From Strigamia acuminata (lineage: Eukaryota; Arthropoda; Chilopoda; Geophilomorpha; Linotaeniidae), in contig OX442314.1 of NCBI GenBank assembly GCA_949358305.1, forward strand, positions 32,979,608 to 33,043,607: a stretch of 64,000 nt of DNA. Direction: 5' to 3'. A program made the position numbers and the translations under genes. Below are positions 32,040 to 63,655 of this stretch, in pieces; position 1 is the first letter of the stretch; every line of letters begins with the position of its first letter. Under the pieces are notes generated by a model, which saw only the letters and a program-made list of their open reading frames with translations, had not been told where the DNA came from and did no database searches.

Positions 32040-32972
32040 ATGAAGAAAGCGTCGGAATTATCGGGCGGCACGGTTCCCGTACTCACCGTTGGGAACTATG
32101 AATCATGGCAACGTTCCATGCGTATGCTCTTGAAGTCCGAAGGCTTATGGAGACAAGTGACCGAGGAAAAGGAGGCCGAGCATCTAGCCACTTTAAATGA
32201 GAAGGAAAAGGACCGTTATGCTGTGAAAAAGGACAAAGCACTCGGCCACATCTATATTCACGTTAGCGAAGCTAAACGTTCTGCCCTTGATGCTTGCAAT
32301 ACACCAAAAGAAGCATGGGATAAGTTGGCTACTATTTACGCACCGAGTTCCAGGGCCAGACGATCGGCCATGAGATGGGAATTTTTGAGCCTCCAACTCA
32401 AACCCGGTGAAGACATGCCTGATTTCATTGGAAGAGTGGACCATTTTGTTCAACAATTAAAAGACGTTGGTGAAAATGTCTCAGAAGAACATCATTCTTT
32501 CCAATATCTCAAGGGTTTACCACCGGAATATGCCCAGGCCACGTTTGCAGTCTACCACTGGCCAGACCCGAACTTTACTCCAACTAAAGTGGCAGAACAG
32601 TTATTGTCCGAGCAGATGCGTTTAAAGGCCATGGGATTGACTAGCCAACCGTCTGCACATACTTCAACAGGGCAATTTCGCCAGCGTAATCAATCTCGCG
32701 GACCGCGGGATTTGTCTAAAATCAAATGTTTCAACTGTGACCAAATGGGTCATTACGCTAACCGTTGCCCACAACCACCACGTGGAGACAGGAATCAGTC
32801 CACAGCTTCAGTCCAGCGTTCGTCGCGAAGTAAAAGCCGCAGACGTAACAAAAATGCCGCTGCCAAGGTTGAAGACACCCGTCCACGTGGAAGTTCGCGT
32901 CCGAAGCGAGAGGGGACATTCTTTTGCAGTGCTCCGCAGATTATTGAGCGTCCTACGGTCCATTTCATGTAA
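32040..32972 (+). CDS. copia Gag
   Basis: The 310-codon frame from ATG 32040 has the UBN2/Retrotran_gag-type pattern (NYESWQRSMRMLLKSEGLW near the N-terminus, AWDKLATIYAPSS...RWEFLSLQLKPGEDM in the middle). A CCHC knuckle CFNCDQMGHYANRC follows (about 32730-32770), then a basic tail. Gag forms the particle shell and its knuckle binds the RNA. The frame ends in TAA at 32970-32972, and protease coding begins in the same frame right after. Confidence 0.93.
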   Translation: MKKASELSGGTVPVLTVGNYESWQRSMRMLLKSEGLWRQVTEEKEAEHLATLNEKEKDRYAVKKDKALGHIYIHVSEAKRSALDACNTPKEAWDKLATIYAPSSRARRSAMRWEFLSLQLKPGEDMPDFIGRVDHFVQQLKDVGENVSEEHHSFQYLKGLPPEYAQATFAVYHWPDPNFTPTKVAEQLLSEQMRLKAMGLTSQPSAHTSTGQFRQRNQSRGPRDLSKIKCFNCDQMGHYANRCPQPPRGDRNQSTASVQRSSRSKSRRRNKNAAAKVEDTRPRGSSRPKREGTFFCSAPQIIERPTVHFM

Positions 32973-35900
32973 TCCAATGAATGGATCGTGGATTGCGGTG
33001 CAACGGATCACGTTTCTCACGTGCGTGGCTGGTTTACAGACTTTTCGAATATCCAGCCATTTGATATTGCGTTAGGCCAAGGCAAATCACAGGTGACAGG
33101 AAGAGGAACAGTTCAATTGCTCACGTCGGTCGACGACACGGATTGCACCATCAATTTGAAGAACGTTCTCTTTGCGCCGAATTTCGAAGCCAATTTGATT
33201 TCGGTGTCAAAGATTGATAAGACCAATCATCATGTGCATTTCTTTAATGAAGAGGTGAATGTTTATCAAACAGACTTCTGTTCACCTATTATTCGTGCGA
33301 GAGAACGCGGTGGATTATACTATTTGGACGGTTTATGCTCAACGCATCTTGTGACGCCAACTGTTTCAACAATTACTCAACCGCCAGTCCAAATATCACT
33401 CCAACCTGTGCAAACACTAGTCACAACGGAAGTAGATTTCGACAACGTGCCAAAGCCAAAGAAGGGAAAACAAAAGCAACGGGAAATTTCAGACTTTCGT
33501 ATTACCGTGCCTGCTGTCGAACCAACGAAGCAAATGCCAGTTCAGCAAATCCCTAACCCTCCTTTGCCTGCACAAGTTACCGTTCCTCCGCCTACACAGA
33601 AAGACCCTGTTATCCCATCCTACACGGATATCCTAAAGTCATTACCTCCTTCCTCTCCTCCTAGCACAACTTCTAGTCCAAAAGAGAAAGTTGTTGCTAA
33701 TCCCACCACAGTGAAGGATGCGACTGGTTTGTGGCACAGTCGTCTTGGCCATCTTCATACCAACGCCATGAAGTTGTTAGCGGCCAATGAACAAGTCCAT
33801 GGAATGGAGCCAGCAGAAGTCTGTCAAGAGTTGGCCTGCAATGACTGTCGAATTGCTAAATCTACAAGAATTTCTCACAAGCCAGATCCGCATCCCATGA
33901 CGTCGAAGCCATTAGATCTTTTACACATGGATCTGTGGGGGCCAGCCCCAGTCACTTCTTTGGGCGGCTCGGATTATGTATTCACCATAATTGACGATGC
34001 AACACGCTACACCTGGATTTTTCCTCTGACACACAAATCTCAGACATTTGCTGCATTTAAAGACTTCGTCACCAGAGTTGAGCGGATTCAGAACACTACC
34101 GTAAAGGCAATCAGATCCGATAGAGGCGGCGAATTCATGTCAAATGAATTCTTGCATTATCTCCAAGAAAAGGGTATCCAGGGACAGCGAACTAACCCCG
34201 CATCGCCACAAATGAACGGGACGGCAGAAAGGATAAACCGGACAATGGCCGACAATGTCCGATCGATTATCTCAGAAACAAAGCTCCCTGATAGACTCTG
34301 GGCCGAATTAGCCGTTACCTTCGCGTATATAAAGAATAGGAGCCCACATTCCAGACTAAAACATCAAGTCCCATACATTCTTTGGCGACAAAGAGATTTA
34401 TCATTGCATCACCTACGTAAAATAGGATCCAAATGTTGGGTGCATTACACTGGACCGGGACGCAAGAAACTGGAAGCGCGTGCCTGGGAACGATACCTAG
34501 TTGGCTACGCCACCGGCACTCGCGGCTACAGAGTCTGGAACCCTGTCGAAGACAGGGTGTATGAATCTATTCACGTCAAGATCGACGAGCATCAATCTTA
34601 TCGAAGTCTTTGCGAGGTTCAACGCAACGACCTGATGAAACATACCTTGAAAACGGCAATGGACAACAATCCGTATCATTTGATGATAATGTCAGATATC
34701 ATCGTTGGCCGAAAGGGTCCGACTCTGATCGCTCTGATAACAGCGATAACGATGATGACAATGGCAATGACAACCAGACATCAACATCTGGGTCAATGCA
34801 TACACCTCTTGTCTTCTTGCCGCCTCCGACGACACCTGAGCAGCGATTATTGGATGCATGTGCGTTGGAATTACCAAGCTCTGCAAGTTTGAGACAATCT
34901 CAATCGTATCCTATTTTATGGATTCCACCAGATGAGGACGATACAGATGCCAATATTGACAAAATAGATGAACTTTCGCATTATCCTGGAACATCTGAAT
35001 TCACCGGTACGTCGCCCGAACAATCGCCATGTCAAACTCCGCCACCTTCACTTGATCGGTCGCGTCGTCAATCACCACCAACTTCGCCTGACAGGTCGCA
35101 TCATGAATCCGAAGCGTCAGCTGGACAGTTAGCTCATCAATCTCCGCCCGGTTCACCAGCACGATATATCACGTATCGTCGCAAAGGGCGTGGAGCAGAC
35201 TCAGGGAGTCATACTGTACCAGTATTTGATGACACTCCAATGTCTCCTGCTCCGATTCCTACCATAACAGGAACTGAAGTTCCAGCAGCGACTGAGCGTC
35301 ATACAGCACATATGTGGCGACTTGTCGGCGGGAATTCAGAATGCAGTAATTGGAGACGCGAAGAGCATCTTAGAAAAGATCAAGTACCTGGGAAGATTAG
35401 GACTGACGTTTACTAGTTTCCAATGCCTGGAATCAGACTCAGATCACCGAAAGACATTGAGGAATATTGCATGCTCAACAACATAGACTATGAGCCTGAA
35501 CTCTTCACGTTCCGCAACATTGAATACACGTTGCCAATTATCCCAGGACCTCAACATGCAGCCCATCTTTGTCGAACGGAACCGGCCTCTTATGCCGAAA
35601 TACCCAAATTCACGGATGCTCCGAAATGGCGCGAAGCCATCGATGAGGAGTTGGGAACGTTCGTTGAGAGAGAGGTCTATGTAGAAGTCCCTAGACCACC
35701 TGATACTACCATCTTGGGCTGCAAGTGGATCTTCAAATTGAAGACGGATGTAACCGGCACCATCACCCGATACAGGGCCCGTCTAGTCGCGCAGGGATTT
35801 CGTCAAACCCTGGGCGTGGATTATGATGAAGTTTTCAGCCCAGTGGTGAATTTTGTTTTAATTCGCCTATTCTTCTGTCTCCTAGTTGTGTTGCGTGGTT

Positions 35901-36554
35901 GGAAGGACGCCCATCTTGACGTTAAATGTGCGTACCTGTATGGTGAGTTAAAGCACAAGGTTTACATGAGGATCCCTGCAGGTGCCACATGCTCCAACCC
36001 CAACAATGTGTGGTTACTCGTAAAATCACTCTACGGACTGCACCAATCAGGAAGGCAGTGGTTTGAAAAGCTGGATGAAGCCCTGCGAGACCTTGGATTC
36101 AAGAAGATGCCAGCATGTAACTGTGTCTACACTTTTGGAAATTCCGCCGTAATGCTGATCTACGTCGATGACATTGTTCTCTTTTATGCATCTGACAGCA
36201 TTTTCAACCAGTTGCTTGCCCTCATCAGTTCGAAGTTCCAATTACGAGACTACTGGGCCTCGAGTTCATACGTGACGCAGGACGCACGTTTATCACGCAA
36301 CGTGCGTACATCGCAAAACTTGTGAAGAAGTTTGACATTGCAATCTACAATCGCGTCAAAGTTCCCGTGACTCCCGGCACCACACTCGTGAGAGGGTCAA
36401 CTGAAAACTTGGCAGACTTTCCCTACAGGTCACTCATTGGATCCTTATTATTTCTGGCGTCGAGGACGCGCCCTGACATTCTCTACTCAGTGATTGCTCT
36501 GGCCCAATTCAATACGTGTTATAATCAAACGCACATCCGTGCATTGCTACAAGT
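32973..36554 (+). pseudogene. copia Pol: protease, integrase and reverse transcriptase, broken
   Basis: Protease DCGATDH is at about 32991. Integrase has an H-x3-H…C-x2-C finger (HSRLGHLH...CNDC, about 33735-33850) and catalytic residues in HMDLWG (about 33930), RSDRGGEF (about 34120) and MNGTAERINRT (about 34215). A frameshift lies near 34610, a TAG at 35414, reverse transcriptase from about 35580 with YVDDIV (about 36162), and another frameshift near 36250. The frame is finally cut by the nested element at 36555. Acidic, Ser/Pro-rich sequence links integrase to RT. Confidence 0.9.
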
Positions 36555-47251: not shown

Positions 47252-49080
47252 CAGTTCTCCTCAGGGACAGTTTCTCGTTACTTAAGCGGCGGTCAGCAGT
47301 CGATTTCCGAGGTTCAGATACGTCAAACACAACGCAATGTCCTGCTAGAAGACAGAAACAGACTTGAACTTTATTTCTCAGTAGCTTTAAGAGTTGATTT
47401 TATTGTGAAATAGGTTTAAGTTAGACTTTAAGTGGTTTTTTGGGTTTTTTCTGTGCGCTATGGGAAGAGTGACCCCAATGTGTCTGCCATAGGCACCAGA
47501 TATGGTGCTTGAAAAAGTGTTTTCCCTTTCTTTAACTGCTCAATCGTCTGAGTTGAAGCTGTTTTGAGCTTTTGTCTTAGTTTACAGGAACACATCCGTA
47601 TCTGGTAGCTGCGCACAACCGTTTGAGCGCGGGAAATCTCTCATATTTTCGCTTTCTTTCTCCTCTCGTTTGTCTTCTGGTTTCAATCAGCCTCTGAATA
47701 GGTTTTTTACGTGCTCTCAGCACCTCTCTGTCAATTCTGCACAAAATGTAAGGTCGATGTTTCGTCTCGAGCAGCTTCAATTTTTGGTCGCTCCTTTTCA
47801 ATGCAAAAAGTGTCTCCTTTTTGTGTGTGTAAGAAATAAGCACGACTTGTCAGGTTGAAGTTTAAACAGGTACTAACTTTATTCTATTCAAAACTGTTCA
47901 TTATATAGCAAAAAGGGGGAATTCTCAGAATTGAGACAAAAGAGGGGGGGGGGTTACAAAGTTCAAAAACCGCAAACAAAACACCACCACCGATGGCAGC
48001 AATTAACAACTTCCTTTCCTTTCAACAATATTTTTCCCAATTAAAGCACTCAAATTAAAGTCTCAAAGGTTCTTCTCCAAAAAGGTTTAAGTCTACACAA
48101 AAATAGTCCTAACATTTCATATCTAAAAATTCCAGTTTTCACACTCTCTTTCCTTGAGTTTACTCCACTTGCACTCTTCTAATCTAATTTAATTTTTAGT
48201 TGAGCTTTAAGAGTTTCTGCTTTGCTGTCTCACAAACAGTATTGCAGTTAGTAGAATCAGTTAGGTTTTTGGCTCAATTCAAGCAGCCATATTGTGTGTC
48301 AAACCACATTTCGACCCTTTCTTACGTGTGAGGACCCCGCCACACAGGTGGTGGTCAAGCTCCTCTCGTTTCTCGTTTGTTCTCAGGAAATTTGAGTTTT
48401 TTAGTTGAGTTTTAATTAGCTTTCTTGTTCAACACATCTGTTGACAACTTACTTTAGATGTTAGTAAGGCGTGGCTCACGCAAGCAGCCTTCTTAGCGTC
48501 TTTACTGACTAGAATGGCACTGTGCTCGGAGCAGTGACCACTTCCTCTTCCGTTCTGATTCGTTTGCGATAGGAAAAACGTTTTTTTTGTGTTGTTTGCG
48601 CTCATACAGAGCACAGAGACGCTCGGGTCATGTCCCTTGAGCATGTCCCAGTTTTAGATTTGACCGGTCATGTGGGCCGTCTACATGGAAAAGAACGCCG
48701 TTTCTAGGGCGGTGGTTCATCGAGTTTCTTCTTTGGTTTTTGCATGTATATTTCCCTGTTTGAAGTCTTGCATGCACTTCTTATCTAGCCAGTTTTTGGA
48801 TGCCATGGTCTTGTCCATGAGCATTGATCCTTGAGTGTTAGGTGTCACTTAGAGTCTTTGCGAGCGGTATCAAGCGCTTGACCATGCATCATTGGTCTTG
48901 TTGTCTTCTTAGATTAGGGATTACTCACCTTTCACGTATCTTAGCAATTAGTAAGCCTGCTATTTTTGCGGACTGAAAACAGTGAAATTGTGGGTGGAAA
49001 GCGGCATTAAAAAACGGCATTTTGCGAACTTATGGCGGACTTATTGCAGGCTCATCCGGGAAGTTTTTTGACCAAAATTT
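47252..49080. other. Unassigned region after copia
   Basis: The first about 135 bases continue the open frame interrupted by copia. The rest is moderately T-rich with scattered short hairpins and a G-run (about 47945). No gene or element ends were established. Confidence 0.35.
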
Positions 49081-49394
49081 CAAGGTTTTAAAGGAAATTT
49101 GAAGTTTTTAAACGAAATTTGAAGTTTTTAAACGAAATTTGAAGTTTTTAAACGAAATTTGAAGTTTTTAAACAAAATTTGAAGTTTTTAAACGAAATTT
49201 GAAGTTTTTAAACGAAATTTGAAGTTTTTAAACGAAATTTGAAGTTTTTAAACGAAATTTGAAGTTTTTAAACGAAATTTGAAGTTTTTAAACGAAATTT
49301 GAAGTTTTTAAACGAAATTTGAAGTTTTTAAACGAAATTTGAAGTTTTTAAACATAATTGAGGTTTTTAAACAAAATTTGAAGTTTTTAAACAT
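49081..49394. repeat. 20-bp tandem repeat (minisatellite), about 15 units
   Basis: Unit GAAGTTTTTAAACGAAATTT is repeated nearly perfectly, with one or two degenerate units at each end and one unit carrying AACAAAATTT. TTTAAA is at its centre. There is no unique spacer between units. Confidence 0.95.
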
Positions 49395-50749
49395 GATACG
49401 GTATCACGCAATACGCACATTCACTCGATTTTCGTAACAAACCCCCCAAAATTGGCAAATTGCAGACTTTCCGAAAAATTGCGGCATTACGATCTGATTG
49501 CGGCAATTGCGGACTAAAAAACACCTCCAATTTCAAAAATTTTGTTGTCAAAATGCTCTATTTGCATTATCCACACTTATGACACCATTTAGGAGAAGTT
49601 TTATTTTCCACAAAAATAGCAGCTTTAGCAATTAGCTTTGGTTGTTGTTCTTGTTGTAGCGCAAGTGTTCTTGTCATTCGAATTGATTGTCCCGCACGCG
49701 CTGGCCAACGGTTTAAGCGTCCGCACTGGTGGTGAGCCACGGTGCATTTACGGACCACCTCTTTCTTGCTCGGTCAATACACCTGCCCTTCTCACATTGG
49801 TGAGTTGGGAGATGTCTTTCTTGTTTCTTTTTCACTGTGAAGATGATTTGTCCTAATTCTTAGAGTTTAGCCATGAGTGTGGTCAATGTGAGTCGACGCA
49901 TGCAGTCACATTAGCTTCTTCTCTTCGGATTTTATCGCTCAACCATGAGGTTGGGTTGGGGGGTTTCAATCCGTCTTGCACACTAGGTGCTTGACGCAAG
50001 CCATCGTTCTGAGGCACATTCAGCCCTGCAGTTCCTTAACGGTGATGGTCATCGACGATGGCCTGAGACCTGGAACGCAGTTTTGTTAGCAGTAGCGGTC
50101 AACCTCTCGACACTTCTTATCTTCTTTGTCTTGTAAGGGGCACCACTGAAGTGGTGACACCTCTCGACCCATGTGGTGACCTCAAATATTCGTATCTGAG
50201 TGCTCACCATATTTCCAAATTGTCTTATGATCATATCAAACATTCCTATATGTTTTGTTTCAATGTAAATTGAAATAAAACATACATTAATAAAATATAA
50301 AACAAGACACAATATTACCCAAATAATATTGTGTTTTGCAGCAAGTTTTGGCCCAGCAACAGCGTCAACCAATCACGCTGCAGCGTGCATTGCTTTGATG
50401 ATGCTGCTAGGCGTGTGCCTGGGCGGAGCATCCCCTCCTCTCACGCGTGCCTGGCTCAATTGTTGCACACGACCCGAAGGCGGCCGTGTGTGATCTTTGT
50501 GCAACTCGTCATCTGCGCAGCTTTACTGAGCAGATTTAGGAGTGAGCCAAACGGTTTTGGCCCACTCTTCCCGCATTCTTGATTCTGCCTCCAAACTGTT
50601 CACAACCGTGTCAAACTTATGCCAAAAACTGCTAAGTGTGATCTGTGATATTGGACAAATTGAGTTTCATTGCTGGTCTGTACCCATTGTACGGAATAGC
50701 GCTTTCATTGCTTGAATTACTACGCGTAATTTAAGCCATTTCTGTGTGG
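49395..50749. other. Unassigned region, probably including the 5' part of an LTR
   Basis: Contains several perfect short inverted repeats: ACAATATTA/TAATATTGT (about 50311-50334), CACCACT/AGTGGTG (about 50138) and GGTCATC/GATGGCC (about 50046). AATAAA strings lie near 50290. The hairpin array that follows and the Gag downstream suggest that an LTR starts somewhere here, but its start cannot be fixed without the 3' LTR. Confidence 0.4.
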
Positions 50750-50848
50750 AATTGACATAGAGCTTGCTCTGTCAATTTGTAGTTCTTTGTGTCGAGCTTG
50801 CTCCACAAAGGAATCTGTGTGTTAAGACGGATTGTTACGTCGAGCTTG
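50750..50848 (+). promoter_or_regulatory. Bulged-hairpin array, hairpins 1, 2 and left half of 3
   Basis: Hairpin 1 (50750-50777): arms AATTGAC/GTCAATT, bulge AT, tip AGAGC-TT-GCTCT. Hairpin 2 (50785-50810): arms CTTTGTG/CACAAAG, bulge TC, tip GAGC-TT-GCTC. Hairpin 3: left arm ATTGTTACG (50831-50839), bulge TC, GAGC-TT-G; its right half is at 60278-60290. All share the two-base 5' bulge and the tip, while the arms differ. Confidence 0.75.
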
Positions 50849-52761
50849 TATGACGGTTTACAATGGCTATAAATGCCTATTTTCTATCAAGAAAGCGCTG
50901 TTGCGCCAATATGATGGTATTTTTACAATATTCTGTGTAAAACTGATAAATGTCTAGAATAAAGTCATTTATGATGTTTCAAATACAAAGATGTTCGTTT
51001 ATTAAGAATAAACACTAATTTCCACATGATACTAAAGTATCACGGCATAATTACGAAGATTCGTCTGCTAAAACCCGCATTTGTCAATGCTCCATATTGC
51101 CACTAGATGGCGCGATCGCAATTAGCGATAAATTCGAATACGAACTTGAAAACCTCATGATTAAATATAAACGTATATTTAATCAAGTGAATAAATTGTG
51201 TTAAATATTAATATAAATATATATTAAGTATCTGACATTGTTAAATACAATGTAACTTCCATTTCTGCGGGACAGAATGTTTAGCGATCAATCGGTCAAC
51301 CGATCAATCTGATTGGTGGAACCCATTTCCGGTCCTGGGTATCCAGTTCCGGTTGTAACAAGGATTAGCATAATTTGCATAAATGCTCCTCCGTATCCAC
51401 TTCCGGTGATACGGGATTGGAGGGATTCGTGGAACCCATGTTCCAATTGGATGACTGGATTAATCCTTAAATCCAGTCAGGTTATATAAACCCAAACAAT
51501 CGGCCATTCCGCAGCTCTGTTTGATTATTTCTGTTTGGTATTGTTACTTAAGAAGTATGATTCGTTGTTCACGTAAAAAACCTTTTGGTTCTTTGTTGAT
51601 TTATTCGCAAAGAACCGTTGCATGATTCTACAGAATCATGCCACCGCCGGCAATTGAAGTCGAAGTGCTGGGATTATTATGTTGCATAAATGTTACAGTC
51701 TACGGTTGCGACGCCGAAGGAGAACCCGCCGTTGTGCAATTCAGTATCCTCCGGACAGGACCAAGTTGTCTTTTTCGGTATGAACGTATTCCGTTACCAC
51801 GAGTAGCATCGGTATTGTTGAGAATCGGTTCCTTCACCTGATGGTGCCAAAGCAGTCTGTTTTACAGTAACCACGAGTAGCACCAAGTGTTTGGCAAGCT
51901 GATTCTCATGGTATTCGATGCCAAAGCAGTCGGTCTATTATTAGTACCGCGAGAGATAAAACTGCTGTGCGGAGCCGCGAGCTATCGACCCCTGTGTACG
52001 TGGTACCGTCAACCACTCGATGGACGACCGTGCTGCGACGCCGGGGACGCTTGATACCGTTCTGCATGGCAAGGCGTATATTCTAATCGATGGCAATTGT
52101 GTGTTGCGACGGGAAGCTTAATCTTCATTTTATTTATAACAGCAAAACTTAAACTCGACAACCAGTTGGACCAAAATCAAGTCAGAAGACTTAATCTCAT
52201 ATTGAACTCAATATAACCGATAAGTTGACGACAACTTATTCCCGAAATATCTAAATAAGAATTCACAACGATATGAATTAAATATAATTCATAAGTGGAA
52301 TATTGATAAGTAAATGAATACATTTACTTACACCAATATCCTCCCAAAGTTGTGGCGGTGCAGACAAAGTCAACCGCAATGCTCAGATCATTCGATTTAT
52401 CGACGTGCGATAGTTTACACAGCGAACCAAGGAAACCAGCGAAGCCGTATCGGACTCCAGGACACAGCCATCCGGCTTAAGATGACATCTATAATCAGGT
52501 CGAGCGATGGGGAAACCGCTCCCATATTCCAGACCCGTAGTGATATTATTCTAGGGCCAGTTGGCCAATTCTTTGTATAGTTTAATAGCTGATTTAACTT
52601 GCCAAATGTCGGCATTAGTCCTATGTATAATTTAGCCTTGATATTATTGTTTACCAACAATAAACTGTCTTGTATTTATCTCGTATTGTATTCACTGTTT
52701 ATTTATTGCGATCTCTTCCCGGTACCATTGTTAAATGGGAGTTGTGGTCGTCACCGTCACA
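50849..52761 (+). repeat. 5' LTR of copy 2 (1913 bp)
   Basis: TATA box in GGTTATATAAACCC (about 51481). AATAAA near 52669 and ATTTATTG follow toward the end ..CACCGTCACA. Short open frames inside it (67, 88 and 81 codons) are preserved in all four LTRs only because the LTRs are near-identical. Confidence 0.92.
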
Positions 52762-52763
52762 CG

Positions 52764-52781
52764 TGGAGGTCCCACCGAGAT
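52764..52781 (+). other. Primer-binding site, tRNA-Gln type, copy 2
   Basis: TGGAGGTCCCACCGAGAT starts two bases after the LTR. It is complementary to the CCA end of eukaryotic tRNA-Gln (…ATCTCGGTGGGACCTCCA, from memory). A second identical site lies at 52999-53016 within a tandem duplication of about 235 bp. Confidence 0.8.
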
Positions 52782-55700
52782 TAGGTTGCAATTAAATTCG
52801 ATTGAATTGCAATAGTGAATATTGGAGATAAATATTTAACTAAAAGATTTAAGTTAAAAATAGACAGATTAAATTTTCAGTTTATATTTCCATGTGAAGA
52901 AGTTAAACTGATGAAATAGAAATACGTAGTAGATTTTCCTTCATTATTTTCGTTTGAAGATTTTAGGGATTTCAAAGACTACCACCTAATCTCACACGTG
53001 GAGGTCCCACCGAGATTAGGTTGCAATTAAATTCGATAGAATTGTAAAAGTGAATTTTGAGATAAATATTTAACTAAAAGATTTAGTTAAAAAACAGACA
53101 AGTTTCAAACCATGTTTATTTTCTTGAGAAACACCAAAACAGTCCTTTAACTAGGAATTTCGGAAGTTATAGACCTATCACACGATCACTGAAATAGGTT
53201 GCAAATTAATTCGATCGAATTGCAAAAGCGAATCTTGAATCCGATATTAACTAAAAAATTTTAGTTAAAACAGACAAATAGATTTTCAGTTTATATTTTC
53301 ATGTGAAAAGTTAAACTGACGAAATGGAAACGTTTAGTGAACTCTCTTTACTATTTTCGTTCGACAATTTAAGGAATACGAAGTATTTTAAATAAGAAAT
53401 CAAAAAAGTTTCGAGTGAAATAAGAATACAGATATTTTTTTCGAAGTTTGTTTTATTTCGAAAAGCTAAAAACATACAAGTTTAGAAGGCGGACTTCTTA
53501 CGAATTTATCTTTCCACCTGAAAAGTTAAAACGAAGAAAACACCGCAACTATTTGGAAATATTTACAAGAAATTAAGTTTCTTGTAACTGTACGTCGACA
53601 CCGATAGCCAGCGACCACGCGCCATAGCAATACGCGTCGATCTCCGTATCAAACGCAGCAGGGAAGCTACTCAAACCTTCAACGCAAGGTGCGAACGAAT
53701 GCTTGGAAATTATGGCGGACAACAGATAAAAGACAGCAGAGAAATGTTACAGAAGGTTCGTAGAGATTTATTTAAGTGTCGCGAACTAATTTTTCCACTG
53801 CCATCGGTACCAAAGATAATTTAGTTGTTGGAGAAAAACAACACACTCCATTTCGCAGAAAAGATTTGCAAATCGAAATGAATATTACCTTTATTTGAAG
53901 GAATTAACTATTTTCACAAAAAGGAAAATTTTTCCTTCGGGACAATGGAAATTAAGAAAATATAAAATGGCGGCGAATGAAGTTGCCGACCACGTAGAAT
54001 AGTATTTTTTACATTGAAAGTTACGAATCACGATAAACGCTTTCCCTCGGAAAAGTAAAAGGATTTCATTCAATCTTTCCTTTCGGAAATTTAACAGTGT
54101 TTTAAGTTTCCAACGATATTTGGGTCTCCCAAATTTTGAGAATTTCTAAATGAAATTTAGCTGTTTGAAAAACAACGAATATTTTTAGTAATCTAATCGG
54201 ACATTTTCCCACATGATTTCTTAAAACCGGAATAACAAATCCATTTGTGGCTATGAACTTTGCCACATGAAATATTTACGGAGCGAATATTTTTTGATTG
54301 GATTGAAGCTTTAAAATCAGATAGCTGATTTAAACGAAGAAAATAAGTTTCAAAGTAATTATTTTTCTTTCGGAAAAATCAAATAAATCACCGCTGATGA
54401 AAAGTTGTATTTTTCCATTCGAAAAAACTAAGAATTGCACAAGATTTATCTTCTATTTTGAACATAGATTTTATTCGGAAAAGGAAAGATTCTAGATACA
54501 TTATTTTTCTCTAAAAATTAAGAATTTAGTCAATTTTCCTAAAGGTTAATGGAATGTCATCATATATTTCGTTCGTAATTTACGTGTTAAAGTTTAATCA
54601 GAAAAACGATTGAATATGTTTTATTTGCGATAAGTAAAAGAAAGGTTCTTTAAAAATGGAATTTCGATGCAAATCCCACAGTAAAGGGAATGTTATGTGT
54701 GAGCAATTAACGAAAAGTTGGAATAACTTCATTTTATTTCATTCAAAAGTAGTTGTGAAAAATCAATTTCAAATATTTTTCAAAGAAAAATTATTTTTAT
54801 CGGAAAAAAGTAATTTACATGTCCTCGCGCGGACCGAGTAGTAAACTGCTTAATTGTGACATCGATACTGTTATTGTGTCACGTGTTATACGGAATTCCA
54901 AACCAGTGAATTACGAATTTTGGCGCGATAGGAATAGAAGTTTGACAGTGAAAGTTCTCCAGATTTGCCTTTTCATTTGAAAAGTTCAAATTGAGGAAAT
55001 GCTGCAGCAGATGAAGGTATTTACGACAATTGAGATTTAAATATTCTTTCATTCAAAAGATAAAAGATCTCTGCAAAAACATCTCGTTATTAGAGATAAG
55101 GGGGACGAAAATTATTAAAACGAATAATCAAAGACACGTCCTTCGTAAATATCGCAAAGGAATAACTAATTGTGAAAACAATTGTCCGCTCAGGAAAAGT
55201 GGAATTTAGCTAGATATTTTCTTTCGAAAAATCAAAGCAATTGTCATCAAAAAAGAAAGATTTGATGAATAATTTTTACCCAAAAGTCTAAAGGATTGTC
55301 GAATAGTTTTCTCCCGAAAAACAAGTACACATTTGTACCAATAACTTTATCGTTTAAAGTAAAATTTCGAATATTTTCTTTTGGAAGATTAGAGAATTAG
55401 ATAATTTTTCTCGCAAAACAAATTTAAAGAATTTTAACGAATTTTTATTTGTTAAAAAAATTTGTTAAAAAAGGGGGAGATGGATGGTGAAAATTTATTT
55501 TTTCACACTCGAAAAATGGAATTTAAACCCGAAAAAGTAAAGACTTGGTCAAATTATTCTTCCTATTGGAAATGAATACACAATGTTGGGAATCGAAAAT
55601 AGATTTCAATTACAAAGGAATGATTATTTGAACGATAATTGAATAAGAATAAGAAAAATTGAGAGTTTGAGAAAACTTTATTAAAGTTGTGGTTGTAACG

Positions 55701-56284
55701 ATATCACACACTAACGGAATAATTAAAAGAAAAATATTTTTTGAAGAAAAGTTATTTAATTATTTGGATTGGTAAAAATCCCAAAGTTCAAGAAGATTGA
55801 AGTAAGTTTATTTTATTTTCATTTGAAAAATACAATATTTTACGAATGTCTTCCCGAAGGAATTTTATTTTATCGGTAAAATTGAATCTCGAAGGGAACG
55901 GACTTAGTAGAGAACTACTAAATAGATGTAACGTCCTTTATACCATTGGCCGACACTAACATCCGCCAATCAGAAGTTGGGAGATCTAGGGATCCCCAGC
56001 CCCCTGCTATTAAAGGAGGACCAGATCAGATACTGATCATTCGCATCCAGACCAGACCAGAAGACGTGTTCCAGAGTCATCTTGACCACGCCGTCCCGAT
56101 TTCAGTCACGATTCGAATTTTGTGTGCCGTGTAACCTGCAAAAGCTAACACGTGTCAAACAAACGCGAAGTTTAATTTTATTTTGTCAAAAGTAAAGTTT
56201 AGAAGTGTTTCTTGTTGAAAAGTGTATTATATTCGTCTTCTTTATAAATTAAAGAATTAAAATCGTCAGATTTTGAATTTTTTT
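52782..56284 (+). other. Long leader of copy 2
   Basis: About 3.5 kb, AT-rich, no supported gene. It begins with about 235-bp tandem repeats (two full and one degraded unit, each with GGTTGCAA(A)TTAATTCGAT). AAGGGGGA tracts occur at about 55098 and 55470. The same small open frames appear in the antisense position in copy 1. Confidence 0.6.
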
Positions 56285-57766
56285 ATGGCTCAAAAACCAT
56301 TGAATATGATCGATCCAAAAGGAAATAATAAGCAGACAAACTTAAATTTAAGTTCTGTACCACTTGGCGATCAAACAGAAAAGATTCCCGATCATTTTAC
56401 TCTGTATTGTAATCGTCATGGACTGGATAAAACCAAGTTTAAAAATATAATCGAAGCTTCAGACTATGTAAAAGCTAGGAACTGGCGAGATCGTACCCAA
56501 TCTCAATCTTCACATCAAGATCCAGTACGGAATCCACAAACATACAGCCGAAACTTAGTGAATCAAGATTCTCATACTATGTTTCAAACATCCAGTAGGG
56601 GATCTAAGTTAGAAAAGTTTAAACCACCTAATTCGGTAGATAAGGGGGAAGAGAATTATAAACCTAATAATTCTCATCCAGAGAGTTCGTTAACTAACCA
56701 GTCGGTTGTTCAGAACAAATTAAAACTCGTTTACAATCGAGATCAGCTAATTTCAGTTCGATATGCTAATCCAGCTGAAGCACAACGATATGTGGCTAGC
56801 CTTAATCTGTCGATTAACCTACCGCTATCAAAAGAATTGGGAACCGTAAACAAAAGTTTTGGGCCACCAATATCAACGCAAAGGAAAGATATTCGGACTC
56901 CAAACAAACATTTGCAGTCAAATAACGTACAACAACGTGCCCGATCGCCGATCACAAACTCATGTTTGCGGACGTATGATTTGTCTACCAAGAAGAGTCC
57001 CCAGCCAAGACAATTCTACCTAACGCCCATTTCAAATCGAAAAAAAGTCAAGCAAACTTTTCCCTTGAAAAAGTATTACCAACACGATAATGAGAATGAT
57101 TTTAAACCTAAAAAAGAAAGTTTTTTGACTAACCCACGGGAGATCCGGTATCAATTCGAACAGTATTGTAAACAATACCAGTTAAATTCAGCTGAATTTA
57201 AAAATATAAACGAAGCGCAACAATTCGTATTTCGAAATCAATACCGTAACCAACGACTAAAACCCGTCCCAGTCGTCAATCTGACGGAGATACAACAATT
57301 TGCGTCTGGAAAGCAACCCTGCAATATCCAGAATAATTCATCTCAACGAGAGGAATTAAGAACTTCAAAAAAGCGTTTTCGGTCACCAAGTCCAGCTGGT
57401 GATGAAGAAACTTCAAATACAAACCAACATGTTCAAAAACTGACTGAAAACCCAGGTTTCCAATCATCAGTTCCACGACTTAGAGTCAAATATAGATCCC
57501 CTCGTTTGTTGCGGGATTTCACAATTCCAAATATGGGTCCTTTCCACGTATGGTTTTCCAATGAGGGTCCCATTCATGTATGGTTTTCCAGAGATGACCT
57601 AAAACAAAAAGTTGGGTCGTCACGGTCATTTACACTGCCAAGTCAGTACACTGTATGTAACTGCCCAAAGGAAAAACGTCGAAAGAAATCAGTACAGCAG
57701 GCTGAGAGATCTCGGAAATTCGCAAATATGCGAGCTCAATATTTAGCAAAGAATCATGTTGATTAA
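56285..57766 (+). CDS. Novel 493-residue protein of the 9.4-kb LTR element, copy 2
   Basis: Intact frame from ATG 56285. It has the same architecture as the copy at 39049-40530: about 35-residue repeats at 34-68 and 287-321, a GPxHVWFS tandem, a basic cluster at 458-469. It differs there by Glu for Lys at 463. Both copies being open after insertion into different hosts argues that the protein is made and needed, or that both insertions are very young. The ATG follows a short leader in which a U-rich run (ATTTTTTTATGG) abuts the start. Confidence 0.8.
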   Translation: MAQKPLNMIDPKGNNKQTNLNLSSVPLGDQTEKIPDHFTLYCNRHGLDKTKFKNIIEASDYVKARNWRDRTQSQSSHQDPVRNPQTYSRNLVNQDSHTMFQTSSRGSKLEKFKPPNSVDKGEENYKPNNSHPESSLTNQSVVQNKLKLVYNRDQLISVRYANPAEAQRYVASLNLSINLPLSKELGTVNKSFGPPISTQRKDIRTPNKHLQSNNVQQRARSPITNSCLRTYDLSTKKSPQPRQFYLTPISNRKKVKQTFPLKKYYQHDNENDFKPKKESFLTNPREIRYQFEQYCKQYQLNSAEFKNINEAQQFVFRNQYRNQRLKPVPVVNLTEIQQFASGKQPCNIQNNSSQREELRTSKKRFRSPSPAGDEETSNTNQHVQKLTENPGFQSSVPRLRVKYRSPRLLRDFTIPNMGPFHVWFSNEGPIHVWFSRDDLKQKVGSSRSFTLPSQYTVCNCPKEKRRKKSVQQAERSRKFANMRAQYLAKNHVD

Positions 57767-58350
57767 CATGATATGATACACAAAGATTCCCCGATTATAG
57801 TGTAAACAGAAAATCCTCTTCTAAAAATCATGACCTCTCTTCTAAAGAAAAGGGGGACAAAATATAAAGTTAAAATTAACAATTCTCGAAAAGTAATATT
57901 ACAGTATTAAAAGACAACTAGTTTAAATTAAAATTAGTCAATTGTACAAAGAATACCAAGTGACTCCGGTCATGACAATTAAGGGGGACATTTTGATTCT
58001 TAAATTGTCAACTCTTATCATCTAAAAGCTATTTATTGTATATTTATAGCGATACATCTGACTAGGCATATGAAATAAATATTTTGTGATAACACAAATG
58101 ATGATTTTATGTATGACGAAAGTTTCTTCAAAAAGAAGACTTGGAAATAAATTCTGGACTTGAATTTAGGCTATTAGAAAAGATTATTTCGGCAGAAAAT
58201 CAGAACTTAGATAATTCAAGTTAGTTTATGTAAACTCAAATTCGAAATTGGAAGTCACGGCATCTCCAAGATACATCAAGTCCGAAAATAGCATTTATGC
58301 TAATTAGGAGAATAACGAAAACTCTATAAAATATTATATAGTTGTGTTAT
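57767..58350 (+). other. 3' untranslated part of copy 2
   Basis: No gene. Includes AAGGGGGAC tracts at about 57850 and 57982 before the terminal polypurine tract. Confidence 0.6.
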
Positions 58351-58361
58351 TAAGGGGGATG
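58351..58361 (+). other. Polypurine tract of copy 2
   Basis: TAAGGGGGATG directly precedes the 3' LTR, the place where plus-strand DNA synthesis is primed. Confidence 0.75.
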
Positions 58362-60274
58362 TATGACGGTTTACAATGGCTATAAATGCCTATTTTCTAT
58401 CAAGAAAGCGCTGTTGCGCCAATATGATGGTATTTTTACAATATTCTGTGTAAAACTGATAAATGTCTAGAATAAAGTCATTTATGATGTTTCAAATACA
58501 AAGATGTTCGTTTATTAAGAATAAACACTAATTTCCACATGATACTAAAGTATCACGGCATAATTACGAAGATTCGTCTGCTAAAACCCGCATTTGTCAA
58601 TGCTCCATATTGCCACTAGATGGCGCGATCGCAATTAGCGATAAATTCGAATACGAACTTGAAAACCTCATGATTAAATATAAACGTATATTTAATCAAG
58701 TGAATAAATTGTGTTAAATATTAATATAAATATATATTAAGTATCTGACATTGTTAAATACAATGTAACTTCCATTTCTGCGGGACAGAATGTTTAGCGA
58801 TCAATCGGTCAACCGATCAATCTGATTGGTGGAACCCATTTCCGGTCCTGGGTATCCAGTTCCGGTTGTAACAAGGATTAGCATAATTTGCATAAATGCT
58901 CCTCCGTATCCACTTCCGGTGATACGGGATTGGAGGGATTCGTGGAACCCATGTTCCAATTGGATGACTGGATTAATCCTTAAATCCAGTCAGGTTATAT
59001 AAACCCAAACAATCGGCCATTCCGCAGCTCTGTTTGATTATTTCTGTTTGGTATTGTTACTTAAGAAGTATGATTCGTTGTTCACGTAAAAAACCTTTTG
59101 GTTCTTTGTTGATTTATTCGCAAAGAACCGTTGCATGATTCTACAGAATCATGCCACCGCCGGCAATTGAAGTCGAAGTGCTGGGATTATTATGTTGCAT
59201 AAATGTTACAGTCTACGGTTGCGACGCCGAAGGAGAACCCGCCGTTGTGCAATTCAGTATCCTCCGGACAGGACCAAGTTGTCTTTTTCGGTATGAACGT
59301 ATTCCGTTACCACGAGTAGCATCGGTATTGTTGAGAATCGGTTCCTTCACCTGATGGTGCCAAAGCAGTCTGTTTTACAGTAACCACGAGTAGCACCAAG
59401 TGTTTGGCAAGCTGATTCTCATGGTATTCGATGCCAAAGCAGTCGGTCTATTATTAGTACCGCGAGAGATAAAACTGCTGTGCGGAGCCGCGAGCTATCG
59501 ACCCCTGTGTACGTGGTACCGTCAACCACTCGATGGACGACCGTGCTGCGACGCCGGGGACGCTTGATACCGTTCTGCATGGCAAGGCGTATATTCTAAT
59601 CGATGGCAATTGTGTGTTGCGACGGGAAGCTTAATCTTCATTTTATTTATAACAGCAAAACTTAAACTCGACAACCAGTTGGACCAAAATCAAGTCAGAA
59701 GACTTAATCTCATATTGAACTCAATATAACCGATAAGTTGACGACAACTTATTCCCGAAATATCTAAATAAGAATTCACAACGATATGAATTAAATATAA
59801 TTCATAAGTGGAATATTGATAAGTAAATGAATACATTTACTTACACCAATATCCTCCCAAAGTTGTGGCGGTGCAGACAAAGTCAACCGCAATGCTCAGA
59901 TCATTCGATTTATCGACGTGCGATAGTTTACACAGCGAACCAAGGAAACCAGCGAAGCCGTATCGGACTCCAGGACACAGCCATCCGGCTTAAGATGACA
60001 TCTATAATCAGGTCGAGCGATGGGGAAACCGCTCCCATATTCCAGACCCGTAGTGATATTATTCTAGGGCCAGTTGGCCAATTCTTTGTATAGTTTAATA
60101 GCTGATTTAACTTGCCAAATGTCGGCATTAGTCCTATGTATAATTTAGCCTTGATATTATTGTTTACCAACAATAAACTGTCTTGTATTTATCTCGTATT
60201 GTATTCACTGTTTATTTATTGCGATCTCTTCCCGGTACCATTGTTAAATGGGAGTTGTGGTCGTCACCGTCACA
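58362..60274 (+). repeat. 3' LTR of copy 2 (1913 bp)
   Basis: Same sequence as 50849-52761 by eye, starting TATGACGG and ending CCGTCACA, then the TSD CTTG. Confidence 0.92.
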
Positions 60275-60277
60275 CTT

Positions 60278-60393
60278 GCTCCGTAATAATCACTTTCACT
60301 GTGTGTGAGAAGTATTCTCGTGTCGAGCGTGCTCCACGAGGGTTTTAGTATATCTAGCAACGTATTTTAGCGTCGAGTTTACTCCGTTAAAAT
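60278..60393 (+). promoter_or_regulatory. Bulged-hairpin array, right half of 3, hairpins 4 and 5
   Basis: Right half of hairpin 3: G-CTC then CGTAATAAT (60282-60290), pairing with ATTGTTACG through one G-U pair. Hairpin 4 (60317-60340): CTCGTG/CACGAG, bulge TC, GAGC-GT-GCTC. Hairpin 5 (60364-60393): ATTTTAGCG/CGTTAAAAT with one G-U pair, bulge TC, tip GAGT-TT-ACTC, a compensated change of the tip stem. Confidence 0.75.
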
Positions 60394-60668
60394 CCCGCGC
60401 TCACACGACGCCATCGACGCCATCTTGGAGCCAACGGTCAACTGTGAGTGTACATTTGAAGAAGAAGCCAGATCGACCCCAAACATTTTAAATAATACCT
60501 CCTGTGTATTTTGAACAATTAAAACTATCTAATTTTTCCTTTACTCTGTGTAAAATCATTCCCCTAGACACACATTTGGCCACAGAGTAGAAGTCCTGTA
60601 CGGCATCTCACCGACGATTGCTTGATAAGTTTACTCAATTTATTAAGTAAAAACCCGGATCGCCGCAC
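60279..60668 (+). repeat. 3' part of the LTR of the downstream retroelement
   Basis: Continues the sequence interrupted at 50848 and ends ..CCGCA(CT) just before the primer site at 60670. AATAA-type strings occur near 60492. The start of the LTR lies left of the nested element and cannot be fixed. Confidence 0.6.
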
Positions 60669-60669
60669 T

Positions 60670-60687
60670 TGGGGGCCCGTCCGGGAT
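60670..60687 (+). other. Primer-binding site, tRNA-Pro type
   Basis: TGGGGGCCCGTCCGGGAT differs at one base from the well-known tRNA-Pro primer site. It lies 70 bases upstream of the Gag ATG. Confidence 0.7.
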
Positions 60688-60757
60688 AGTTTTGATTGTT
60701 AAAATCCGATTTTTGCAAAAAGATCCTTTATTTCCATTGTTCTCTCAATTTGACAAA

Positions 60758-63655
60758 ATGGCGACGCCAATGCAAATTGTGAAACGACAGCGAGGTCGAC
60801 CAAGCACTCAGAAACGAGCAGCGACGGTTTTGCCGGCTCTCGAGCCTGAAATGCTTGTGGAGAAAATTATTTCCGAGGAAATAACACCAGTTCCAGATCC
60901 GAAACAACTTAAGGATGCGGAAAATGAAGTTGCTAGAGCATTAAGCGCTTCAAGTGCGAGTTCTAACGAACAAGAACTCCCGCCACTTCCACTGGAGGAA
61001 GTGGAAAATACGTTACGAGAAATGGAAAGTGAATCGTCTCACGAATCCCCTCCTCGCATGACCATGCTGGATGCTTTGAGAAATCAAGCACGCCAGGATG
61101 GCGCCCAAATAACGGACGACATGACGGTGGAAGAGATTCATCGCGCCATGATACGACTTCACACTGACCGAGCCGTTTCAGATTTAAAATTTGAAATGGA
61201 ACGGAAAGAAGCAGAGCTTCAACAACAAAAAGCGGAGGTTGAGCTTCAACATATGGAACTCAATCGACAGAATGAGGAATTTCTAGCCCAAAAAGCTAGA
61301 GAATACAGATTAAAAGGTGAAGTGGAAGATCTTTCTAAAATGAATGTTAGAAATGAACTTTCAATTCGCTCACACCAAGAGGCGCGAAAACAACTCGAAC
61401 TTACTAAAAGCAAGTTGGAGTTAAAAAATAAAGAATTGATTGATTTGGCAGACCACTACCAACGTAATCACAATCAATTAGTGAGATATGCTGCTGAATT
61501 GGACACACGAGCCAAAACACAGCGTACTCGCGAAAGTCGAATAGCAAGGCACGAAGACGAGATTTTCCACTCGCTGGATCAACCCAGTACGAGCGGACAA
61601 GTCAAGTTTAGCAACCCTGCTGATCAATTACCACCCGTAGAAGCGGACAATCAACTAAGAGAGAATGAAATTCTCAGAGCTGATTTGTTGCGCGCTCAAG
61701 AAGAGCTTGCAGAAATGAAAGATCGTTTGCAAGCAAGGAACTACACGGAACAAATGGTACGACCTGAATTGGTAGCACCGACTGTTCCTATTTTGACTCC
61801 CGAAACAATAACAATATCTGTTGTTTCCGAGTTAAGTAGCCAATCTGGATTATCAAGTGATGACGACCAACGTTCGCGTCGTTGCCATCGCTCGAAAAGA
61901 AAACGTCCTTCAGATTCCGAGGAAAGGAGAGCTGATCGCAATCCGCTTCCTGGAAATCGAAATCCTATTTTTCATAACAGTGATCGACTGTTAGGAATGG
62001 TAGATGACCGAAATAGGCAGCATGAAACTGGTGTTCATGCTGCCCGAACGATGCCAATTGCTGCCCAACAGCAAGAATCGTCGAAAAGAAGTCGACGAGA
62101 CATAATTCCGTTACGCGAACCACCTGACGGACATGGAAGCCCACCAGGTGGGGGACAGTATAGGAGAAACCCGCCAGATGGAGGAAATCCAGATGGACAT
62201 GGAGATGGACCACCTGGAGGTGGACGCCGACCGCCAGACGATGACGGCGACCCACCCGACCCACCTGAAACACCACATTTTAACACGCCTTCAAATTCAC
62301 AATCTGATTCAAAGTCGGATTCTGATGTGAATGCGCAACAAGAACGCGATAATCGACATCGATCGCATCGACGTCGACATCGAGGCCATTCTTCACGGCA
62401 TAATACTCATTATTACACTGCTGAGGAAATTGATCGATTATTAGCTGATCGTCGATCTTCCGATCGATCTGACGCTACTGCCGATAATGCTGACATTGCA
62501 TTACGACAGAAAATTGCACAATACACTGCCAACAACTGGACTCACGATCTAGTTGATGAAAGAACTATTAGATGGGATCACATCAAACTCGCTTTATTCG
62601 ATGGAGAATGGGAAGCTGGATCCACTCTTTTAGATGAAGTTTTACGAATTTCAAGGTTGAATGGCATTGCTTGTCACACTGCTTTGAAAAGAGTAGTACC
62701 AAAAGCTCTTATAGACCGAGCTGAAAAATGGTTTTATTCAAAACAATTTCAAAATTGGAATCACTTTGTAGAGGAATTCATGACTGAATATGGAGAGTCA
62801 AGTGAAGACTTACTACAAATGTGGGATAATCTTTCTCAAAATAAAGGCGAAAGTCTTCGCTCTTATTTAAGAAGGACTGAGGATTTATTGGTCACTCTCC
62901 CTTATACGATGGGAGACGCAGCCATTGATCGTCAATTCCGTCGTGGATTGACAGATTATTCAAAAAATGTTCTACTTTCAGTACGAGCACCTTATCCGGG
63001 TGGTTTCGCTGAATTAGCCAAATTTATGCGAGCTAACCAGATAAGAATTGATGAAAATTATAAAGCTTATCTACCAGCTGATGAAAAAGTTGCGTACGCT
63101 AAGCGGCAGCAAAGGAGAAAGGAATTGGCAAAAGACACACGTTTTGCTAACACCCCTCTTTTGCAACCCCCAAAGCGAGGAGATTTTTTGGCAGAGACTG
63201 CTAAGGAATCTAAAAAGGGATCGGATGGGAAAAATCCACATCCAACCCCTAAAGCTCACTTAGCCGAAGTGACAGAAATGGAAACTGCTTCTGAACCAGA
63301 GAAATCTGACTCGGAACCAGAAAGTGAGGCTGCAGCTGCTTTATTAGCCCGTAATAACGCAGTAGCTCGAAAATTTGGACCAAAGATGGCGCCTAAAAAC
63401 GTTACTTTTGGTTCACCAAAAACAGACGCGCTCAGTAGATCGAAGTCGCTGACCCCTAAAAAGGATGAAGCCAAACGTTCAAGTTCGCCTTCACCAAAGG
63501 TCGCTAAATCGCCAGCTACTGATCCGTGTAACATCTGCAAAAAATTGGGACATTGGGCTAAAGAGTGTCCTGATAGGAAATCGAGCAAAGACAAGATTAT
63601 TGAGGAGTTCGAAAAATCGATGAAATCAATCGGCGAACTTCTAAAAAACTTGTAA
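60758..63655 (+). CDS. LTR retrotransposon Gag (965 residues)
   Basis: The frame from ATG 60758 starts MATPMQIVKRQRGR. A long coiled coil spans about residues 140-350 (heptad-rich Glu, Lys, Gln and Leu), followed by an RS-like segment and a Pro/Gly/Asp-rich linker (about 450-510). A helical capsid-like region comes next (about 590-780: WFYSKQFQNWNHFVEEFMTEYG...LRSYLRRTEDLL..LP). A single CCHC knuckle CNICKKLGHWAKEC lies at about 924-937. The Retrotran_gag-like pattern fits Ty3/gypsy-type Gag, but it is unusually long because of the coiled coil. It ends with TAA at 63653 immediately after a -1 slippery heptamer. Confidence 0.88.
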   Translation: MATPMQIVKRQRGRPSTQKRAATVLPALEPEMLVEKIISEEITPVPDPKQLKDAENEVARALSASSASSNEQELPPLPLEEVENTLREMESESSHESPPRMTMLDALRNQARQDGAQITDDMTVEEIHRAMIRLHTDRAVSDLKFEMERKEAELQQQKAEVELQHMELNRQNEEFLAQKAREYRLKGEVEDLSKMNVRNELSIRSHQEARKQLELTKSKLELKNKELIDLADHYQRNHNQLVRYAAELDTRAKTQRTRESRIARHEDEIFHSLDQPSTSGQVKFSNPADQLPPVEADNQLRENEILRADLLRAQEELAEMKDRLQARNYTEQMVRPELVAPTVPILTPETITISVVSELSSQSGLSSDDDQRSRRCHRSKRKRPSDSEERRADRNPLPGNRNPIFHNSDRLLGMVDDRNRQHETGVHAARTMPIAAQQQESSKRSRRDIIPLREPPDGHGSPPGGGQYRRNPPDGGNPDGHGDGPPGGGRRPPDDDGDPPDPPETPHFNTPSNSQSDSKSDSDVNAQQERDNRHRSHRRRHRGHSSRHNTHYYTAEEIDRLLADRRSSDRSDATADNADIALRQKIAQYTANNWTHDLVDERTIRWDHIKLALFDGEWEAGSTLLDEVLRISRLNGIACHTALKRVVPKALIDRAEKWFYSKQFQNWNHFVEEFMTEYGESSEDLLQMWDNLSQNKGESLRSYLRRTEDLLVTLPYTMGDAAIDRQFRRGLTDYSKNVLLSVRAPYPGGFAELAKFMRANQIRIDENYKAYLPADEKVAYAKRQQRRKELAKDTRFANTPLLQPPKRGDFLAETAKESKKGSDGKNPHPTPKAHLAEVTEMETASEPEKSDSEPESEAAAALLARNNAVARKFGPKMAPKNVTFGSPKTDALSRSKSLTPKKDEAKRSSSPSPKVAKSPATDPCNICKKLGHWAKECPDRKSSKDKIIEEFEKSMKSIGELLKNL
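63643..63649 (+). promoter_or_regulatory. Programmed -1 frameshift site A AAA AAC
   Basis: The heptamer is in the correct phase (gag codons CTA AAA AAC TTG TAA). The -1 frame is open from here to the window end, as required for Gag-Pol fusion. Confidence 0.8.

Follow-up and report, generated by a model that had tools for sequence, protein, structure and literature searches.

Cis structures in the unspliced RNA of retroelements are read by viral or host proteins, as with the Rev response element (RRE), the constitutive transport element (CTE) and the packaging hairpins of retroviruses. In the trans-activation response hairpin (TAR) of human immunodeficiency virus (HIV), the upper stem is GAGC/GCUC in HIV-1, the bulge has two bases in HIV-2, and the apical hexaloop is read by cyclin T1. 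To our knowledge, no TAR-like system of this kind has been described outside vertebrate retroviruses. Here we report an array of five short, bulged hairpins in the long terminal repeat (LTR) of a Ty3/gypsy-type retrotransposon of the centipede Strigamia acuminata. The array lies in a stretch of 64,000 nucleotides (assembly GCA_949358305.1, contig OX442314.1, positions 32,979,608 to 33,043,607 of the forward strand; hereafter the window), and its fixed bulge motif and matched stem changes point to an unrecognised protein-binding RNA element. A literature search among open-licence PMC papers returned nothing on such hairpin arrays in retroelements.

In the arginine sandwich motif as described in PMC6189040, a pyrimidine in the bulge forms the cap by joining a stem pair in a triple, and the base is the paired nucleotide that immediately precedes the bulge. 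In TAR, U23 joins A27-U38 over A22, and in motif 3 of 7SK, whose bulge is U40 U41, U40 joins A43-U66 and A39 (PMC6189040). Like TAR of HIV-1 and HIV-2, the array is placed in an LTR and has a 5' pyrimidine bulge that starts with U, a purine below it, a G-C and then an A-U pair above it, and an upper stem GAGC/GCUC like that of HIV-1; it differs in having five hairpins in a row where TAR has one, in its arthropod host and in the Ty3/gypsy type of its element. Stem-loop 1 of 7SK (PMC6189040) shares with the array the two-base bulge, the purine below, the repetition of the motif and, as would also be the case in the array, a triple reaching two steps up to the A-U pair. However, in 7SK the motifs are packed into a single helix turn of one stem, whereas the array has one motif per separate hairpin. 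Compared with RRE, CTE and packaging hairpins, the array is a series of short hairpins in which the stems are free and the head is fixed, and the window gave no Rfam match at the gathering level. Five loci searched against Rfam at E <= 1 gave five microRNA matches only (E 0.26-0.6), far under the cut-offs and none of them in the array of this family.

Five hairpins in one LTR

An earlier note, drawn from the letters of the window, had described five bulged hairpins, and all five are present on the plus strand. Hairpin 1 (50749-50778) reads GAATTGACA-TA-GAGC-TT-GCTC-TGTCAATTT and hairpin 2 (50783-50812) reads TTCTTTGTG-TC-GAGC-TT-GCTC-CACAAAGGA. Hairpin 3 is uninterrupted in other copies and is here cut into a 5' half, GATTGTTACG-TC-GAGC-TTG (50830-50848), and a 3' half assigned from its position in the window, CTTGCTCCGTAATAATC (60275-60291). 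Hairpin 4 (ATTCTCGTG-TC-GAGC-GT-GCTC-CACGAGGGT) occupies 60314-60343, and hairpin 5 (ATTTTAGCG-TC-GAGT-TT-ACTC-CGTTAAAAT) occupies 60364-60393, with its tip altered on both sides as the note had observed. The bulge had been given as TC, once AT; when the full arm of hairpin 1 is paired, the odd bulge is TA, and T is then the first bulge base in all five window hairpins. The hairpins had also been taken to form an array of 9.6 kb. In the uninterrupted copy at locus L008 the array is ~215 bp long, and it looks 9.6 kb long in the window because an inner LTR element of 9426 bp (50849-60274, plus strand), absent from the note, landed in the tip of hairpin 3. The LTRs of this insertion start at 50849 and 58362, are identical over 1.9 kb, and are accompanied by a 4-bp target duplication, CTTG.

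All data come from one genome (237.5 Mb, 157 contigs), in which the cuticle domain PF00379, typical of arthropods, has 54 matches. The arrangement of the hairpins was surveyed in 81 sequences, comprising 80 loci (some places fetched twice) and the joined flanks of the window, with 45 distinct arrangements among them. By our own count, the five hairpins occur in identical order in 69 of the 81. Loci L041, L042 and L080 have seven hairpins, the block of hairpins 1 and 2 being doubled; eight sequences have one hairpin missing or broken; and locus L043 belongs to another LTR family (family B, the family of the array being family A). Tandem duplication of a single palindrome is ruled out for the array as a whole since the five arms are unrelated, which agrees with the difference between arms recorded in the earlier note, but such duplication did affect hairpins 1 and 2 at the three loci just named.

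The string GAGCNNGCTC occurs three times in the window against 0.20 expected. Genome-wide, the tip string GTCGAGCNTGCTCC has 426 occurrences against 3 for its reversed control, and a looser head pattern has 1390 against 185 for the control. A scan of the window for single hairpins (head plus at least six of eight arm pairs) returned five matches, four of them in the array, against 2.65 expected under a Markov model. Folding energy, a point against, is just modestly low: for the whole array of one copy the z-score was -2.3 (plus strand) or -3.3 (minus strand), and 120-base windows over the array reached at most -1.9 (plus) and -2.5 (minus). The case stands on the array and on covariation, neither on lone hairpins nor on energy. 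As a separate observation, the exact string ATAGAGCTTACTCT recurs singly on contig C1 (e.g., at 3919128, 4627445 and 5522374), where it may belong to another repeat with one head.

Compensatory change in hairpins 1, 2 and 5 and the strand evidence

Covariation was assessed in an alignment of 62 distinct array regions from 99 loci, with the pair structure defined by one copy and G-U pairs allowed. In these copies 98.9% of 3984 pair cells were paired, against 38-48% when partners were slid by one to three columns, and 125 cells had changed on both sides against 40.9 in column shuffles. The copies are closely related and shuffles ignore relatedness, both of which favour a neutral by-product, in which descent among young copies would mimic covariation or one palindrome would have been duplicated in tandem. 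A tree-aware null was also applied, in which columns were simulated independently along the tree (400 runs; recombination-free model; 60 rows, L051 and L053 being left out for having one end in foreign sequence). Total G was 481.9, against a null mean of 50 and a maximum of 140, and seven of the 20 pairs with both columns variable lay beyond the null, all in hairpins 1, 2 and 5. Parsimony placed on the tree 16 double changes that led from one Watson-Crick pair to another. Compensatory change thus maintains the stems in hairpins 1, 2 and 5. The earlier note had argued for selection on structure and had proposed a covariation test on the LTR copies; a test of that type, run here, supports the argument by the count of double-changed cells, by the slid pairings and by the joint signal on the tree. 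The neutral explanation also draws on the doubled block of hairpins 1 and 2 and on the assumption, common to these tests, of no recombination between copies. Against it stand the unrelated arms, the excess over the tree-aware null, the 16 double changes, and a more diverged second family that keeps the plan, and we give it very little credence.

Some results weigh against covariation throughout the array. Pairs with at least one double change numbered eight against 7.4 in shuffles (eight was reached in 228 of 500), and the pair types numbered 43, under the 47.9 of shuffles. The counts of pairs and of pair types are thus not raised, and the signal is the frequency with which matched letters co-occur. 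Hairpins 3 and 4 have zero double changes, and the changes that they do show are one-sided and mostly to G-U, with a few broken cells. A stem predicted by RNAalifold from the 62 copies to close the array (plus strand; TGTGTG at 50743-50748 with CACACG at 60402-60407) is weaker than the hairpins because its changes are one-sided only. We consider selection for pairing close to shown, and these RNA hairpins are very probably under selection.

The non-Watson-Crick pairs bear on the molecule that is selected, since in DNA both G-U and A-C are mismatches, whereas in sense-strand RNA only A-C is. Over all arm pairs, these cells comprised 229 G-U, 14 A-C and 16 other combinations. At pairs that are Watson-Crick in the reference copy they comprised 90, 14 and 15, respectively, and G-U occurred in at least four copies at 6 of 61 such pairs, A-C at none. 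Counted as events, arm changes from a Watson-Crick pair went to G-U 33 times and to A-C 13 times (44 and 13 with the four G-U pairs of the reference), and with those four pairs left out the split differs from an even one at P = 0.002. Three points count against this strand assignment. Unpaired columns also lean to changes that would make G-U (121 versus 84), and measured against that lean the event test gives P = 0.05 without the four reference G-U pairs and P = 0.003 with them. The reference structure, taken from one copy, itself allowed G-U at these four pairs, which biases the count to G-U. In the tips, the two classes are even (8 G-U versus 10 A-C). The persistence of G-U is a better sign of selection on RNA than are the event counts. 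The earlier note had placed selection at the level of RNA; this stands in so far as G-U exceeds A-C and is weakened by the borderline event test, so that sense-strand RNA is favoured, not proven, as the selected molecule.

A function of the DNA itself, as inverted half-sites for a dimeric DNA-binding protein or as cruciforms, would suit the near-palindromic tips, the occurrence of regulatory DNA in LTRs and the borderline result at the event level. Yet a sequence-specific DNA binder would not tolerate arms whose letters can be anything that pairs, and a bulge on the 5' side spoils the symmetry of the DNA. In addition, G-U outnumbers A-C by 90 to 14 among the arm cells, although in DNA both would be mismatches. 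A DNA cruciform or dimer site is disfavoured, and DNA-level function in general appears quite improbable.

The fixed head and the structured LTR

Head letters were counted in 300 hairpins, five from each of 60 family-A copies. The pair below the bulge has its purine on the 5' side in 299 of the 300 and is G-C or A-U in 293; the first bulge base is U in 299; and the pairs above the bulge are G-C in 290 and then A-U in 299. Other parts of the head vary, with C, U or A as the second bulge base and C-G or U-A (U-G once) as the fourth tip pair. The loop, which the earlier note had written as two bases in DNA notation, takes seven forms across copies (TT, GT, CT, TTA, CTA, TCA and TAA), with two or three bases in all 300 hairpins. 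Kissing hairpins need a self-complementary loop of sufficient length, and these loops are too short for the array to consist of retroviral dimer-initiation (kissing) hairpins. One reservation applies to the letter counts: the tip pattern itself had picked out 38 of the 60 copies, so hairpins 3 and 4 are subject to bias. Among the other 22, recovered by similarity alone, the counts were 109/110 for the U, 109/110 for A-U and 102/110 for G-C, and for hairpins 1, 2 and 5 taken over all 60 copies they were 179/180, 179/180 and 175/180.

Family B, found via L043, shows much greater divergence (68-100% identity among 42 matches, with 40 of 56 candidates scored), and 21 of its loci (L043 and L120-L139) were scanned by structure only, with no letters imposed. 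Seventeen hairpins at 15 of these loci, recognised by eye from one flanking context (mostly GAGTCCCG..CGGAACTC and variants), are all R-T-N-GA. Their third tip pair is G-C, C-G or T-A, so the letters common to families A and B are R, U, G and A, giving purine-U-N-G-A with a bulge of two bases on the 5' side. The head is a fixed feature of family A and of those family-B hairpins that were recognised. The family-B scan also yielded evidence on the other side. It gave 32 matches, while the opposite strand gave 29 and shuffles 20.3, and bulge-free hairpins were in excess too (32 versus 16.1 in shuffles), so the excess is no peculiarity of bulged hairpins. One recurring headless hairpin, whose bulge is CA or CG and whose tip is TCG/CGA, makes up six of the matches (at L122, L130, L135, L137, L138 and L139), the nine remaining look like chance, and 6 of the 21 loci have no head hairpin. 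Upstream of the head hairpins, family B has a hairpin around TAACG (CTTTGGG..CCCAAAG, elsewhere TCTCGGG..CCCGAGA) that seems by eye to covary.

A related third family, C, whose reverse transcriptase (RT) is ~75% identical, keeps other hairpins (by eye) but shows none of these heads in the single LTR inspected, which is a further point against. Heads were also absent from the inner LTR and from five 2.1-kb windows upstream of RTs 73-77% identical, of which L111, L112 and L115 cover the LTR end, marked by a primer-site-like string, and L113 and L114 do not. The three families have common LTR landmarks, with A and C compared by alignment and B by eye: the LTR start, TGCGCAG, the array region, a poly(A)-type signal and CCCTAGACA. 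Where family A has ATTAAA, families B and C have AATAAA (by eye). As the array precedes this candidate poly(A) signal, it would be in the 3' untranslated region (UTR) in any case, and a transcription start upstream of the array would place it in the 5' leader as well.

Other hairpins of the family-A LTR also keep their pairing in 48 LTRs, which makes the array one component among several in a structured LTR. With the same reference-copy bias in the cell counts, hairpin 78-113 has 61 G-U and 4 A-C cells, hairpin 132-167 has 53 and 1, and hairpin 1029-1061 has G-U cells well above A-C, while hairpin 10-29 shows no G-U surplus (2 G-U versus 4 A-C). The first three (numbered in the LTR at L008:834-1911) are of 14-16 bp, and 1029-1061 lies near the LTR end beside the primer-binding site. 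That much of the LTR RNA seems structured, that family C has hairpins lacking this head and that a headless hairpin recurs in family B would all fit a structured RNA without arginine recognition. The hairpins would then, for instance, be recognised by their shape as signals for Gag assembly or packaging, or would stabilise the 3' UTR, and the U-N-G-A head would be a relic of the lineage. Such an account has to face the pattern of constraint in the head, where stems, loop, second bulge base and upper tip pairs vary and R, U, G-C and A-U stay; we regard it as a genuine possibility, if a rather doubtful one.

Set beside the arginine sandwich of PMC6189040, the array heads have the same letters at the same places, with a two-base bulge as in 7SK motif 3. 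The bulge U, near-constant in family A, is present in 17/17 of the family-B hairpins, and the pairs below and above the bulge agree as well. This resemblance in secondary structure and letters suggests that the head would fold as an arginine sandwich, with the bulge U joining in a triple the A-U pair that lies two steps up, and with an arginine stacked between that U and the purine below. The bulge, which the earlier note thought looked like a protein-binding site, may be one.

Arginine-rich proteins of the element and a possible docking site

The array-bearing (outer) element has LTRs, a primer-binding site, gag, pol (RT, RNase H and integrase) and a third open reading frame (ORF3), with Pfam domains PF03732, PF00098, PF00078, PF17917, PF17921 and PF00665. 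Its LTR of ~1.08 kb runs from TGTGGTGACC to GATCGCCGCA, and the LTRs within each of two other copies compared are 99.8% identical; the family is young. In the window the 5' LTR lies on the plus strand in two parts, at 50172-50848 (beginning with TGTGGTGACC; set from the LTR pairs of other copies and the position in the window) and at 60279-60667 (ending with GATCGCCGCA; set from the LTR limits of other copies). The candidate poly(A) signal ATTAAA is at 60518-60523, and the primer-binding site TTGGGGGCCCGTCCGGGAT, which we take to be tRNA-Pro-like and which has similar strings in other copies and family C, is at 60669-60687. A gag ORF of 987 aa with domain matches to Retrotrans_gag (PF03732) and a CCHC knuckle follows at 60692-63655, all on the plus strand. 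These LTR limits and gag domains bear out the location in an LTR upstream of Gag given in the earlier note.

Two proteins of the element are candidate partners of the array. Gag of another copy has the arginine-rich segments RSRRRHRSKRKRP and RSHRRRHRGHSSRRN, and the ratio of nonsynonymous to synonymous substitution (dN/dS) in the 5' part of gag is 0.04-0.21 (ten of 28 matches versus one reference copy). ORF3, at L082:2701-5537, is probably spliced and is arginine-rich with RS-like stretches; its exon 2 has 747 codons from stop to stop and 10.6% arginine, and a putative short exon, with GT as splice donor and AG as acceptor, lies upstream. ORF3 DNA was present at 40/40 scored places (of 96 candidates). 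Over its last 67-250 codons dN/dS was 0-0.17 in seven copies versus one reference copy, the seven having been chosen from 21 matches as differing from the reference; L010 among the copies has an internal stop. The C-terminal part thus appears to evolve under purifying selection. No Pfam or PDB match was found for ORF3. Matches of pieces to Bcl-2 (E 0.15) and a Bestrophin-like domain (E 0.33) fell under the Pfam cut-off and are not believed. Of five models of the middle part, the best had a mean predicted local distance difference test score (pLDDT) of 67 and the other four 44-47, the model of the N-terminal part was unreliable (pLDDT 44), and the predicted fold had no PDB or viral structure match below E 0.001.

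Like Ty3/gypsy elements with an extra ORF, the outer element combines gag, pol, a tRNA-type primer site and a third ORF, but this ORF3 is arginine-rich and has neither a strongly hydrophobic segment nor a Pfam or PDB match. It differs from errantiviruses and retroviruses with an envelope in that exon 2, the part scored, has no transmembrane segment or Env domain (top 19-residue hydropathy 1.09). Being conserved without such a stretch or match, ORF3 looks like a real, conserved gene and not an obvious envelope.

Other features of the window were seen in passing. The inner element is very young, has an AAGGGGGA tract before its 3' LTR, an LTR rich in short palindromes and a single ORF of 497 aa without a Pfam match. 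A 20-bp tandem repeat array (start-to-start spacing 20) lies beside the outer element at 49005-49444, and a copia-type element with gag, integrase and RVT_2 domains is found at 32004-36325.

We propose that the array serves the LTR transcript as a functional RNA domain, in which each of the five hairpins would combine a replaceable stem with a fixed recognition head made of a paired purine, a bulge U-N and then a paired G and A. The row would act as a multivalent docking site for an arginine-rich protein, the likeliest partners being the element's own Gag, through the two segments named above, or the ORF3 product. Binding would mark unspliced RNA for the element's use, in export or packaging. 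We hold the chances that an arginine-rich protein docks on the array through arginine sandwiches to be about even. Transcriptional control in the manner of Tat and TAR is conceivable and would require the array to be near the RNA 5' end. Here the loop of two or three bases in all 300 hairpins, in contrast to the TAR hexaloop, is a point against, as it is for the docking reading, and no Tat homologue turned up in a profile search limited to Pfam.

The array might alternatively imitate 7SK and bind a host HEXIM-like protein or the P-TEFb machinery instead of an element protein. The head equals 7SK motif 3 (A39-U40-U41, triple with A43) as given in PMC6189040, and 7SK or HEXIM studies exist for Drosophila and silkworm. 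However, neither the window nor the five loci gave an Rfam 7SK match, and nothing ties the array to an RNA 5' end, so mimicry of this type strikes us as highly improbable. The broader idea that an arthropod LTR lineage came independently to a TAR-like control, with a row of arginine sandwiches read by its own ORF3 or Gag product or imitating 7SK, is one that we consider unlikely on present sequence comparisons.

If the docking proposal is true, the arginine sandwich motif, known from lentiviral TAR and 7SK, arose in an unrelated lineage. Five heads with exchangeable stems would then be a natural variant series for what arginine-rich proteins need in order to read RNA, and the finding would hint that some Ty3/gypsy elements carry Tat- or Rev-like regulation via a third ORF that is not an envelope.

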